This document shows, piece after piece, positions 23,310 to 28,122 of a stretch of 34,453 nt of DNA (positions are counted from its first letter, which is position 1; each line of letters starts with the position of its first letter). The notes beneath the pieces are model-generated. The model saw only the letters and a list, made by a program, of their open reading frames with translations. It was not told the origin of the DNA and made no database searches. A program made the translations under genes and the position numbers. This stretch comes from Flavobacteriales bacterium (lineage in GTDB: Bacteria; Bacteroidota; Bacteroidia; Flavobacteriales; Flavobacteriaceae): assembly GCA_026996605.1 (NCBI GenBank), contig JALWLE010000129.1, forward strand, positions 1-34,453, read 5' to 3'.

Positions 23310-25970
23310 CTATTTATTAACTAAAAATTGTTTTACATATAAACCGGAATCTGTTTGCAAATGCATAAAATATTTACCGGTTGTCAGTTTAGAAATAATA
23401 ATTGGTTTATTTTTAAAAGCTTTATTATAAGTCACGGAATGTAACTTGCGACCTGTTATATCATAAATGTCAATTTTATTAATGTTTATATTTTCAGCAA
23501 CTTCAAGATTTATAGTATTTTTAGCCGGATTAGGATAAAGTTTGATCTTATTCGTTCGATGATTTTCATTAATTCCGTTGACTTCATTTATAACCAATTC
23601 AAATGAACAAGTTTGTGTATTACCGGAGGGGTCAGCGGCTTCAAAGTTTATTTGATAAGTTCCGGCGTTTAAATCAGTCCCTGCTGCGGGGGTTTGCGTG
23701 ACGTTAACAACATTACAATTATCACCAGCCGTGACATCACCATTTGAGATATAATCGGGTAAAGTATATATGGTTTGATTGGCTTGTAAATCAATAGTTT
23801 GATTGCCGGGGCAATTGACAACTGGTAATTCATTATCTGTTACCGTTACATCAAAAGTGCAATTTGAGAGGTTGCCTGCCAAATCTTTGGCTTGATATTC
23901 GTTAGTCGTGGTGCCTACCGGATAAGTATCACCGTCAGCCAGTCCGGTAATTTGTTTAACCAAAACTTTATTTTGTATTTGGATTTGTGTACCATACATA
24001 ATAGACCCGTAATGTCCCGCCCAACCTTCTGCATCTCTACCGCCATCTTCTATTACAATTTGTCTTACGCCGGACGGATACCCGCTAAAAGTATGACTTA
24101 TTGTTTGTACAGCACTAGTAGTTGTTATTAAACCGCTATCAAAGCTATCTAATTCATTACCATTAGCATCTAATAATCTAACTATAAATTTATATGTGTC
24201 GGAATAATTAGGTGCGCCACCTTGATATTTTTCAGATACGATGATATCCGGAGAAGTGTCTAAAACTTCAGGGTCGTAGTTTAAACTCAATAAATCAATA
24301 ACACGCGTTTTTGAATTCCAAGCGTAAGATGTTTGAAAATGATTATCGGAATTAATAGTCCAACCATCGCCACCATTATAAATTATAGTCCAATCACTGA
24401 GGTTGTTTAAAGTATGTTCGCTTAAAGCAACGTAGTAACTATTTGTATCGCAGTTATCACTTGCCGTAGGGGTGGTATAATTTACTAAGGCACCACAACT
24501 ACCTGAATCGACATCAACAGTAATGTCATTGGGACAATTTGCAAACTGTGGTCCTTCATTATCTGTAACACTTATATTGAATGAGTAGTTAGAATAATTG
24601 CCTGCTAAATCTTTGGCTTGAAAGACATTAGTGGTTGTACCTATCGGGTAAGTGTCACCGTCAGCCAGTCCGGTAATTTGTTTAACCAAAACTTTATTTT
24701 GTATTTGGATTTGTGTACCATACATAATAGACCCGTAATGTCCCGCCCAACCTTCTGCATCTCTACCGCCATCTTCTATTACAATTTGTCTTACGCCGGA
24801 CGGATACCCGCTAAAAGTATGACTTATTGTTTGTACAGCACTAGTAGTTGTTATTAAACCGCTATCAAAGCTATCTAATTCATTACCATTAGCATCTAAT
24901 AATCTAACTATAAATTTATATGTGTCGGAATAATTAGGTGCGCCACCTTGATATTTTTCAGATACGATGATATCCGGAGAAGTGTCTAAAACTTCAGGGT
25001 CGTAGTTTAAACTCAATAAATCAATAACACGCGTTTTTGAATTCCAAGCGTAAGATGTTTGAAAATGATTATCGGAATTAATAGTCCAACCATCGCCACC
25101 ATTATAAATTATAGTCCAATCACTGAGGTTGTTTAAAGTATGTTCGCTTAAAGCAACGTAGTAACTATTTGTATCGCAGTTATCACTTGCCGTAGGGGTG
25201 GTATAATTTACTAAGGCACCACAACTACCCGAATCGACATCAACAGTAATGTCATTGGGGTAGTTTGTAAATTGTGGTGCTTCATTATCAGTAACCGTCA
25301 CATTAAAGTGAGAAAAAACGGCTTCGCCGGTATTATCAATTCCTTTATAGATTACTTGTGTCAAACCAATAGGAAAAGGATCTCCACTGGCCGGTCCCGA
25401 TAGTAATTCAAAAGGCTGTCCTGCTTTTTCGATGATAGCTTTAATAGTAGTAGTTTCAGGATAATCATTCCAATATCCGTTGGAATATAATTCTGTATAG
25501 TCTTCGTTATTTACATTATTGGGCTCTCCGGCAGCCCAATTGGTGTAAGTGCTTGTATTGCCACTATCCCATACAAAAGTTCCTTCTATGTTAACGTCAC
25601 TAAAACCTATTTCTGCTGATGCAATATTATTGGTTGATAAATAATTTGCTAAGAATTGATTGACGTCGGCGTTGGGTACGGTTGCTACGTAAGCATTTAA
25701 ATTATGAGCATTTGTATAAGAATCCTGTGCAGTTACCTCATCTTGTGAGATATAATAATAACTACCATCTTTAAATCCAATCGTGTTATATCCTGTTAGG
25801 GTATGTGGCGGTATTGAATCTTGATAGGTTGTTTCCGGCGCCGTGTAAGTTACAATGGCACTACATTGACCGGGGTCATTGTTAACTGAAATATCAGTTT
25901 GTTGCGCATGCGACTGTTGCCATAAAAATAGAACAGACCATAAAACTAGAGAAAATACATTTCTTTTCAT
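23310..25970 (-). CDS. Secreted T9SS cargo: C-type-lectin-like and two FBA-like domains nested in HYR repeats
   Basis: The product has 886 residues. It has a signal peptide (about 1-23) and a C-terminal type A T9SS sorting domain (about 807-886: KLYPNPAKNTINLEV...DITGRKL...GKYFMHLQ...KQFLVNK), so it is exported to the cell surface or medium. HYR half-domains (PNDITVDVDSGSCGALVNYT...DNC and LADGDTYPIGTTTNVFQAKDLAGN) bracket inserted domains. These are a C-type-lectin-like domain (about 62-188, with EPNN and WND) and two F-box-associated-like domains (about 275-420 and 517-662). The FBA marks are GGDGW, TSYAW, VIDLL, ISHTF, GVR and GGRDAEGWAGHYG. A fourth HYR (about 711-795) has no insert. Glycan binding or adhesion is inferred. 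Confidence 0.8.
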   Translation of the reverse strand: MKRNVFSLVLWSVLFLWQQSHAQQTDISVNNDPGQCSAIVTYTAPETTYQDSIPPHTLTGYNTIGFKDGSYYYISQDEVTAQDSYTNAHNLNAYVATVPNADVNQFLANYLSTNNIASAEIGFSDVNIEGTFVWDSGNTSTYTNWAAGEPNNVNNEDYTELYSNGYWNDYPETTTIKAIIEKAGQPFELLSGPASGDPFPIGLTQVIYKGIDNTGEAVFSHFNVTVTDNEAPQFTNYPNDITVDVDSGSCGALVNYTTPTASDNCDTNSYYVALSEHTLNNLSDWTIIYNGGDGWTINSDNHFQTSYAWNSKTRVIDLLSLNYDPEVLDTSPDIIVSEKYQGGAPNYSDTYKFIVRLLDANGNELDSFDSGLITTTSAVQTISHTFSGYPSGVRQIVIEDGGRDAEGWAGHYGSIMYGTQIQIQNKVLVKQITGLADGDTYPIGTTTNVFQAKDLAGNYSNYSFNISVTDNEGPQFANCPNDITVDVDSGSCGALVNYTTPTASDNCDTNSYYVALSEHTLNNLSDWTIIYNGGDGWTINSDNHFQTSYAWNSKTRVIDLLSLNYDPEVLDTSPDIIVSEKYQGGAPNYSDTYKFIVRLLDANGNELDSFDSGLITTTSAVQTISHTFSGYPSGVRQIVIEDGGRDAEGWAGHYGSIMYGTQIQIQNKVLVKQITGLADGDTYPVGTTTNEYQAKDLAGNLSNCTFDVTVTDNELPVVNCPGNQTIDLQANQTIYTLPDYISNGDVTAGDNCNVVNVTQTPAAGTDLNAGTYQINFEAADPSGNTQTCSFELVINEVNGINENHRTNKIKLYPNPAKNTINLEVAENININKIDIYDITGRKLHSVTYNKAFKNKPIIISKLTTGKYFMHLQTDSGLYVKQFLVNK
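23929..24533. repeat. 605-bp direct repeat, copy A (inside the HYR/FBA gene)
   Basis: This is identical to 24655-25259 except for one base (T24504 versus C25230) in my base-by-base reading. The period is 726 bp, which is 242 codons, so the frame is kept. It covers the second FBA-like domain with its flanking HYR parts. Confidence 0.92.
24655..25259. repeat. 605-bp direct repeat, copy B (inside the HYR/FBA gene)
   Basis: This is the partner of 23929-24533 and encodes the first FBA-like domain. The 121 bp between the copies has diverged, which argues for sequence homogenisation of the two copies or for a recent duplication with clear boundaries. Confidence 0.92.
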
Positions 25971-26211: not shown

Positions 26212-28122
26212 TTACCGCAACTTGACGGTTTCAATCACTTCAAATGTGTCGGGATTGATGACTTCCATATTGATATGTTGACCATCGACATTGAATAACA
26301 TTAAGGCGTGTAAGGTTGAGAATTTTTTAACAAATTTTCGCCAAGGTGTTTGTTCTAAAGAATAATAAGGCGCACCGGCACTACCATTGGTTATTTGCAC
26401 AAAAGGTCGTTTGAATTTGATTTTTTTACCGGTCCAATTATCCGGATATATTGGTGTGTTATTGTTGACTTCCAACCGGCTGTAATTATGTTCATCGCCG
26501 CAGAGTAGAGCGACAAATTTATCACTTTTATTGACTAAAATATCCAAAATTTCATCACGGCGTTCTATGATGCCTTTATCAACCGGTTTGCCGGCTATAT
26601 AAGGACGTATTTGGTTGTTGCCGTTATACCACATATCATCTCCCATATGTCCGGCATTGGGAAACGCCGGTGTGTGAAACGTCACAAAAATATGGTCAAT
26701 GTCTTTGTCGGCTTCATATTTTGCCATTGTTTTTTTAAGCCATTGGAGTTGGTTATCCATGATGTAACCGTGTACATTGCCGGAAGTTAATGGAATATCA
26801 GCCGTTGATGAAGCATACCAATAATTAGAATTCATCACAATCATAGCTACATTGCCATAGGTGTAATCATAGACATTTTCTTTGTAGGACGGAAAATCTT
26901 CGGTTTTTCGTGACGGGTCGAAAGCACTGCCGTCTTCCGATTTCAAATCGCTGACCGGCATGGTGAAATTATCGGCAAAAGTGGCTTCGGCACTGTATTT
27001 TTTAAATGGAAATTTATCGACAAATAAATGTCCCAGGTAGTATGAATGCCCTTTGTATCCGGTGCGTTTAAAGATACGTTCAACAGATTCGTGATTGCCC
27101 ATAGCTACGTAAACCGGATGATAGTGCCAGTAGTTACCGACAGCATGTTTCCAGTTGATTAATTCTAAATTATGTTTATCATTGCTACCGCTATAACCGT
27201 TAATTAAGTCACCGGTAAATTGAAAAAAAGCAGCATTTTTATACCCGGCAAACATCATCATTTTTTTTAAAATATAGGCATTAACACCAAACAAATCGCG
27301 TTCGCCACCGCCTTGTCCGGCACGACTGTCGGAAGCGTAAGCAAAAGTAAATTTACTACGGCAACCTTTCTTGGGAGCTGTTGTAAATTGATAATATTCT
27401 TTCCAGTCATCATAAAGCACGGTATAATTATATGATGTTTGTGGTTTGAGTCCGGTGATGCTAATTTCGTGTTGACGCGTGGGAACAATATCGGAATAAA
27501 CTTGGTCGCCAATGCGGATTTGTGCCAATACGTTTTTATTGGTTTTGAACGAAATAACCAAGCTTTCGGCTTTGACTTGATTGATATAAGGTCCTTCAAT
27601 CAAATAAATATCTTCTTGAAACAGTCCGTTTTTGTCCTTTTTAAGATTTAACCGCCCATCATAAATAACCTGTCCTTTGTCATCAATTAAGCGGTAACCT
27701 AAACGAGCTTTACCGGTTTGTTCCCAGTTGATAAAATCGTATTTACCTTTTAAACGTTTGAAAGGAATGACCACTTTCCCGTTTTTGACTTTGGATGTTT
27801 TTTTGAAAAAGACAGGTCCTGGATATTTGACATTATCCATTTTGATGAAACCATAGCTGACTTTTCCGTTGATGCGTTCATCTTTAAAATCCAGCTGTAC
27901 ACCGTCATTAGTGCCTGTAACTTTGGGTTCGGCAATTTTGCTGTATGTATAAATCGGATTTGGAATTTCTTCCGGATAGAATTCTTTTTTATTGACCACA
28001 CCCAAAATTCCCTTTTTATACTTGATGTTAGAGTATGATTTTGGCACTTTAATTTTTTGAGCTTGCAAACTAAATCCTGCCATAAATATTATCAGGAAAG
28101 CCCATTTATCTATTGTTTTCAT
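26212..28122 (-). CDS. Exported metallophosphoesterase with N-terminal fibronectin-like domain
   Basis: The product has 636 residues. It has a signal peptide (about 1-22, ending LQAQ), then a beta-rich purple-acid-phosphatase-like N-domain (about 170-250, ending TSYNYTVLYDD...YQFTTAPKKG). The calcineurin-like catalytic domain shows YASDSRAG, GDLINGYSG, GNHES, VTFHTPAF and GDEHNYSR. The last motif is normally GHxH, so here the first His is Asp. The first motif, usually DxH or GD, reads SDSR, so metal coordination may differ from the textbook set. It would hydrolyse phosphate mono- or diesters in the periplasm or outside. It has no T9SS tail. It is divergent from tatA, and Tat export is not indicated because no RR motif is seen. 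Confidence 0.82.
   Translation of the reverse strand: MKTIDKWAFLIIFMAGFSLQAQKIKVPKSYSNIKYKKGILGVVNKKEFYPEEIPNPIYTYSKIAEPKVTGTNDGVQLDFKDERINGKVSYGFIKMDNVKYPGPVFFKKTSKVKNGKVVIPFKRLKGKYDFINWEQTGKARLGYRLIDDKGQVIYDGRLNLKKDKNGLFQEDIYLIEGPYINQVKAESLVISFKTNKNVLAQIRIGDQVYSDIVPTRQHEISITGLKPQTSYNYTVLYDDWKEYYQFTTAPKKGCRSKFTFAYASDSRAGQGGGERDLFGVNAYILKKMMMFAGYKNAAFFQFTGDLINGYSGSNDKHNLELINWKHAVGNYWHYHPVYVAMGNHESVERIFKRTGYKGHSYYLGHLFVDKFPFKKYSAEATFADNFTMPVSDLKSEDGSAFDPSRKTEDFPSYKENVYDYTYGNVAMIVMNSNYWYASSTADIPLTSGNVHGYIMDNQLQWLKKTMAKYEADKDIDHIFVTFHTPAFPNAGHMGDDMWYNGNNQIRPYIAGKPVDKGIIERRDEILDILVNKSDKFVALLCGDEHNYSRLEVNNNTPIYPDNWTGKKIKFKRPFVQITNGSAGAPYYSLEQTPWRKFVKKFSTLHALMLFNVDGQHINMEVINPDTFEVIETVKLR

Follow-up and report, generated by a model that had tools for sequence, protein, structure and literature searches.

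Positions 1 to 34,453 of contig JALWLE010000129.1 of a Flavobacteriales bacterium (assembly GCA_026996605.1), called the window here, carry on the minus strand an open reading frame (ORF; 23310-25970) that encodes a protein of 886 amino acids. This protein is a true bacterial member of the F-box-associated (FBA) family in a new architecture: a signal peptide is followed by a C-type lectin domain (CTLD) within an HYR domain, two FBA copies, each within an HYR domain of its own, a further HYR and a C-terminal sorting domain of the type IX secretion system (T9SS). A putatively exported protein hereby pairs two copies of a fold that is familiar mainly from ubiquitin ligases of animals with a lectin domain of the mannose type. 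We consider it moderately probable that the gene product acts as a multivalent lectin adhesin that is exported and displays its lectin domains on an HYR scaffold.

FBA copies in a T9SS-tailed protein

A first-pass annotation, made from the sequence alone, had described a series of motifs in two segments and had assigned them to the FBA domain. The quoted motif series is indeed present two times in the 886-amino-acid protein, and this identity was borne out by profile, by sequence relatives and by fold. A Pfam search revealed FBA (PF04300) with E=2.6e-54 over two stretches and 184.1 bits, compared to a cut-off of 32.4; copy 1 (24702-25139) and copy 2 (23976-24413) each lie above the cut-off alone (95.9 bits, E=3.4e-27). 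The other two families named at that stage were matched as well, HYR (PF02494) with 9.9e-32 and Lectin_C (PF00059) with 8.3e-08 (33.4 bits, cut-off 22.6). The C-terminal domain (23319-23540) was assigned to T9SS sorting, type A, by Pfam PF18962 (2.5e-12) and NCBIfam TIGR04183 (1.4e-10, 41 bits, cut-off 23). An F-box profile was absent from the Pfam matches of the protein at E up to 1. Since it has neither the F-box needed for SCF assembly nor the full sugar pocket, the protein is, judged by its sequence, no lectin-type F-box protein. The signal peptide (residues 1-22, cleavage near AHA/QQ, 25905-25970) was recognised by eye, without a prediction program.

In the PDB, the only sequence relatives of the FBA part were FBXO2, FBXO6 and FBXO44, with E-values between 1.2e-18 and 6.5e-16, and the entries after them had E 1 or worse. 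Identity to FBXO2 is 36% across the domain. Residues 472-714 were modelled with AlphaFold2 (AF2) from an input of four bacterial rows only, the two window copies and the two copies of a sister species, and the best model reached a pLDDT of 74.8 and a pTM of 0.70. The top ten rows of a Foldseek search with this model were all FBXO2/6/44. The same held for the top nine rows in VIA-align, where Fbs1 (2e32) superposed with Z 17.0 (rmsd 1.8 A, 133 residues), FBXO6 with Z 16.2 and FBXO44 with Z 14.8; the best row outside the family, a virus capsid protein, had Z 12.3. The fold comparison covers the FBA part only, and for this part the predicted FBA beta-sandwich was supported by the superposition on Fbs1.

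The sister species (genome G007; contig JALVEJ010000094.1 of the Flavobacteriales metagenome-assembled genome (MAG) '134-614') encodes a syntenic orthologue of 885 amino acids that is 69% identical. Compared with the sister protein, HYR 4 is most similar (85% identity), followed by the tail (74%), the FBA and lectin parts (65-68%) and the signal peptide (32%).

The two segments of the window protein had been described as copies; the duplicated motifs are present, but the segments are more than alike, being 100% identical in nucleotides over 573 nt (24657-25229 and 23931-24503, residues 248-438 and 490-680). At the flanks of this tract the adjoining 60-nt blocks share 45 of 60 positions and further blocks 25-32 of 60. 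In the sister species the FBA copies have diverged from each other. Because of the identity over 573 nt, the window copies were probably homogenised recently, for which gene conversion is the simple explanation; an assembly cause is possible. In a comparison with the sister species, 25 sites of the window FBA agreed with copy 1 and 21 with copy 2 (runs test p=0.056), which is no more than suggestive of a mosaic origin of the homogenised copies from both.

HYR domains as insert slots

The match of HYR 3 is split between profile positions 43 and 46, and its halves (24435-24563, profile 2-43; 23841-23948, profile 46-81) flank FBA copy 2. Around FBA copy 1, the N-terminal half of HYR 2 (25161-25289, profile 2-43) scored 19.5 bits, below the cut-off, and the C-terminal half (24567-24677, boundary from HYR 3 homology) fell below reporting by the HYR profile at E 0.01. 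A custom HYR model, from which 6 of 26 seed stretches had been left out (wrong strand, stops), matched the former with an independent E-value (i-E) of 6.2e-10 and recovered the latter (residues 415-468, i-E 1.2e-11). With this model, two halves were found in order around each FBA copy and a C-terminal half after the CTLD. Of HYR 1 only this C-terminal half (25293-25427, profile 37-81) is clear; the N-terminal half before the CTLD (25830-25898) is readable by eye, and its match to the custom model is weak (i-E 8.6e-6) and runs into the CTLD. HYR 4 (23592-23837, profile 2-80) is unbroken. In the AF2 model, ten-residue blocks of the HYR N-terminal half had a pLDDT of 82-90 and then 63, those of the C-terminal half 83-93 and then 76. 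Both FBA copies lie between HYR halves, at the loop after a DNC motif; DNC is absent from the first HYR, which carries the CTLD.

At E 0.01, the HYR profile matched only this gene in the window's own genome; among relatives, HYR matches were found in 54 of 119. A survey of the HYR slot in 23 loci and the window yielded 298 HYR matches in 32 ORFs (the window's included) with eight split pairs, which is no frequency, since the loci were picked for strong or half HYR matches. With i-E 1e-3 required of both halves, six pairs were left, of which the window and L055 have two each and L093 and L095 one each; this filter overlooked one visible case, L056. In genome G017 (L055), ALK_LTK_GRD interrupts one HYR and LamG a second, and in G020 (L095) LamG interrupts one. 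In L093 the split HYR belongs to an M36 fungalysin-type protease with a T9SS tail (L093:8101-13965), and the 244-residue insert (residues 1010-1253) has no assigned Pfam domain. As in the window, the insert follows DNC in L055, L056 and L095; the case in L093 is without DNC. Since the slot bears LamG or ALK_LTK_GRD elsewhere, in genomes of the same family, the proposal of a pluggable site was strengthened and holds beyond this gene. HYR is tabulated as a cell-adhesion domain in PMC9957290. With such a slot, flavobacteria can vary the heads carried by a constant scaffold, a point of interest for adhesion and for multivalent glycan binders.

Sugar pockets and proposed role

The first insert had been taken for a C-type-lectin-like domain, and this was supported by the match to PF00059 (25452-25727, residues 82-173) and by mannose-type proteins in the PDB: the best matches were a macrophage mannose receptor chain (1.8e-15, several domains summed) and the mannose-binding protein 1hup (6.5e-14). 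In the alignment to mannose-binding protein, EPNN and WND are retained, likewise in the sister species. EPN is associated with mannose (PMC5379193), and the two motifs suggest that the CTLD would bind sugar.

For Fbs1, Phe177, Tyr279 and Trp280 are described as essential and as touching GlcNAc-GlcNAc (PMC4603797). The alignment agrees with the first reading of the pocket, Trp kept, Tyr replaced by Gly and Lys by Ala: Fbs1 Phe177, Tyr279, Trp280 and Lys281 correspond to Tyr, Gly, Trp and Ala in the window copies. Furthermore, Fbs1 D216 is Asn. Variants with F173Y (human numbering) together with E174R were selected among improved Fbs1 variants (PMC5457524), so Tyr at position 177 is compatible with binding. 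The pocket was also compared in 11 bacterial FBA sequences (G1145 was left out). Trp280 is conserved in ten of them, the remaining one having Tyr, and Lys281 is present in none. Three aromatics at 177/279/280 were found in six (G093, G1129, G1115, G1125, G1151 and G1152), which are not independent, since four of them (G1129, G1115, G1151 and G1152) belong to one genus; G1152 retains Tyr-Tyr-Trp. Copy 2 of the sister species has His at 177 and Asn at 279. From these residues, sugar binding by the window FBA looks possible but apparently weakened compared to Fbs1, and some bacterial relatives look more competent.

A number of findings weigh against a multivalent lectin adhesin. In the FBA copies, positions 279 and 281 are changed and the beta2-beta3 loop, which bears Asp158/Asn159 in Fbs1, is absent. 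FBG3/FBXO44 (Tyr, Tyr, Trp, Ala) shows no sugar binding, owing to its different loops (PMC4603797), and human Fbs1 bound less well when two of the residues Asp154, Asp212 and Lys280 were changed to alanine (PMC5457524). The pLDDT of the AF2 pocket loop with the Trp (model residues 179-181) is <50, and therefore the pocket was assessed from sequence alone; the four other AF2 models average only pLDDT 60.9-64.4, and a model of the lectin-in-HYR part from two sequences reached 29.5. Comparison with the sister gene by NG86 speaks in part for the adhesin, with nonsynonymous (dN) and synonymous (dS) rates of 0.069/0.403 for HYR 4, 0.257/1.628 for FBA copy 1 and 0.213/1.185 for the whole gene, and dN < dS in all parts but the signal peptide; dS is partly saturated, YN00 gave no result for most stretches, and the signal peptide has a dN of 0.596 and a dS of 0.577. 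Of 13 genus members, two have the gene in full length, and four others match the HYR 4/tail part only. Finally, no polysaccharide-use gene was recognised among the nine window proteins scanned, in which the sole sugar-active enzyme is an SLT/LysM transglycosylase.

Binding of high-mannose N-glycans by the FBA copies, as first proposed, is thus unsupported: of the three positions whose aromatics are essential in Fbs1, only two have an aromatic residue, the Lys is absent, and FBXO44, even with its Tyr kept, binds no sugar. What stands of the exported multi-lectin on an HYR scaffold is the identity and fold of the FBA copies, their nesting in HYR, the lectin-like first insert and the T9SS export tail. 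The adhesin would be secreted by the type IX system, its stalk being formed by the Ig-like HYR beads. Three of these four HYRs would have a loop replaced by a whole domain of carbohydrate-binding type, namely the Ca2+-type, mannose-class CTLD in one and the identical FBA copies in the other two. With three lectin heads per chain, displayed on the cell surface or within the matrix, the protein could attach multivalently, and hence avidly, to glycoproteins or to surfaces coated with glycans. The tail was observed, and it suggests export and a surface location; sugar binding by the FBA copies is weakly indicated, and adhesion would be the biological role that fits these parts.

It is also conceivable, albeit doubtful in our view, that sugar binding has been lost in the FBA copies, which would now serve as protein-binding domains or structural spacers, as may be the case in FBXO44, leaving the CTLD as sole lectin. 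Of the four key pocket positions, two are changed to Gly and Ala, which points in this direction, as do the His and Asn of sister copy 2 and the lack of sugar-binding activity in FBXO44, which has Ala at the Lys position (PMC4603797). However, Trp280 in 10 of 11 bacterial sequences and the Tyr-Tyr-Trp of G1152 make it plausible that a pocket was present in the ancestral bacterial domain; dN < dS in the FBA copies speaks for constraint, which is compatible with either reading. A somewhat better case, possible but still not the one we favour, can be made for FBA as a carbohydrate-binding module (CBM) that binds a sugar other than the N-glycan core, i.e. algal, matrix or microbial polysaccharides, with the same class of beta-sandwich. 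Fold neighbours include CBM16 (Z 8.9), CBM61 (Z 8.8) and CBM22 (Foldseek E 4.1e-5), the pocket composition is unlike that of Fbs1, and the standalone FBA proteins G084 and G093 begin with NPGAE..L/I.GW, a start that we take to be CBM-like. On the other hand, Z <9 perhaps reflects a mere common jelly-roll, virus capsid and toxin domains reach equal or higher values, and no polysaccharide-degrading enzyme was found among the nine window proteins scanned.

A eukaryotic contamination or a chimeric contig could account for a domain of animal type in a bacterial genome assembly, and such an origin might be thought of because the annotation of FBA among human proteins is limited to NCCRP1 and five FBXO products (PMC3210139). 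We regard it as extremely improbable and rejected it: the sister genome is separate and encodes the 885-amino-acid orthologue with the same neighbours, FBA was found in nine more species, of which five were scanned and all five are T9SS-tailed, and the window copies are themselves nested in bacterial HYR domains of a protein with a T9SS tail. The exported lectin adhesin remains the reading that we prefer.

Distribution, genomic context and comparison with known systems

FBA was found in 11 distinct species of the window's class, belonging to four families. Positive were 4 of 99 relatives, 4/395 genomes of an order draw and, with alignment A1, 4/395 of a class draw; a phylum draw with alignment A5 (n=385) revealed the own genome only, and an earlier one with the Pfam model (n=395) the own genome and one match below the cut-off. 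All these counts include the own genome, and the draws overlap. The match below the cut-off, in G330, has an internal stop and was set aside; it is absent from the A5 draw, which may not include G330. In family f15, FBA is present in 3 of 12 genomes, and in family f73 in 5 of 35, all of one genus (own genome not counted). The T9SS tail was detected in all seven FBA proteins scanned, window included, with four other species outside the scan. The occurrence of FBA in proteins with a T9SS tail, across four families of bacteria, adds an extracellular setting to the one already known for the domain. Beyond the phylum, 14 control genomes were searched at E up to 10, and the result was one weak match below the cut-off, in Methanosarcina acetivorans. 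A mobile-element or phage origin was rejected, as no FBA relative was found among viral contigs (single query or alignment A1), phages or plasmids. A pattern scan of genome contigs (alignment A2) confirmed one of 45 pattern-matching stretches, the sister locus; its silence means little because two narrow peptide patterns were used and none of the f15/f73/f98 loci was returned.

A standalone FBA gene adjoins an NlpC/P60-like gene (by eye) at L019:4774-5583 (f15, G500), L109:7000-7821 and L110:5199-6020 (f73, G1129 and G1115), and this direct adjacency suggests vertical orthologues. The NlpC/P60-like gene is one gene off in G084 and two in G093; in the window, a Pfam-confirmed NlpC/P60 gene (19628-20083) lies several genes from the FBA gene. 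G1125 (f98; L111:4980-7535) encodes FBA together with MAM, GEVED and a T9SS tail, and of three bacterial FBA domains queried singly against the FBXO2 chains of the PDB its FBA was the best (E 1.2e-24 to 5b4n). In a 13-row FBA tree made for the direction of transfer between animals and bacteria, whose animal rows are FBXO2 and 5b4n (an Fbs1 loop mutant) only, FBXO6 and FBXO44 being left out, the join of animal and bacterial sequences had weak support (56/20) and a long-branch warning.

As described in PMC4603797 and PMC3210139, FBA reads the substrate or the glycan in a small number of animal proteins; plant F-box surveys also appear under the name FBA. Listings of open-licence PMC papers, read mostly as listings, contained no report of bacterial FBA; automatic annotations, e.g. 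in InterPro, may exist. Tentatively, and as a rather unlikely scenario in its entirety, FBA could be an old exported lectin family of Bacteroidia, carried on HYR and other surface proteins and recruited into the animal Fbs ligases (the reverse being less likely), with HYR as a general display scaffold in which one loop accepts whole lectin domains. Small bacterial homologues, e.g. G1152 with its Tyr-Tyr-Trp, provide a test set for sugar specificity and origin of FBA.

In the window and in G007 the multi-lectin gene sits between rsgA and a metallophosphatase gene. The comparison of the rsgA locus took in 9 of the 11 genus members without the multi-lectin gene: rsgA and the metallophosphatase gene are neighbours, ~90-230 nt apart, in G006, G003, G010, G008 and G002, and in G011, G001, G009 and G012 another gene follows rsgA, with no metallophosphatase match within the stretch examined. 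The multi-lectin gene is accessory, since its full-length form occurs in only two of the genus members, and was gained once or lost repeatedly. The neighbouring window gene (26212-28122) encodes a metallophosphoesterase with Metallophos above the cut-off, a purple acid phosphatase N-domain just below it and, by eye, a likely signal peptide; it flanks rsgA whether or not the multi-lectin gene is present. In G007, genes for a histidine kinase-like protein and a LuxR-type response regulator-like protein (by eye; L007:5739-8478) lie between the metallophosphatase and multi-lectin genes, and the window is without them. The sample code of MAG 134-614 recurs in a study on deep-sea hydrothermal vent deposits (PMC9793634), and on this ground the genus probably lives in vent deposits; the source bacterium is probably marine.

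With the animal proteins FBXO2/Fbs1, FBXO6/Fbs2 and FBXO44, the window FBA shares the profile match, the modelled beta-sandwich fold and Trp280. Unlike animal Fbs proteins, the window protein has no F-box, a T9SS tail instead of a cytosolic setting and its FBA within HYR, and unlike Fbs1 it has a shorter beta2-beta3 loop, Gly for Tyr279 and Ala for Lys281. The CTLD has EPN, WND and similarity over most of the domain in common with mannose-type CTLDs (mannose-binding protein, DC-SIGN, mannose receptor); a Tyr replaces the Cys that follows EPN in mannose-binding protein, and, unlike the animal domains, it has HYR halves after and (by eye) before it and is part of a bacterial protein with a T9SS tail. 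The standalone bacterial FBA proteins (G084, G093, G500; G1129 and relatives) also combine FBA with a T9SS tail, but their FBA is near the N-terminus and no HYR or CTLD was matched. HYR beads are common to the window protein and the HYR-repeat proteins of related flavobacteria, whereas lectin-type domains break three of the four HYRs in the window protein and the inserts found elsewhere are LamG or ALK_LTK_GRD domains or an unassigned stretch.

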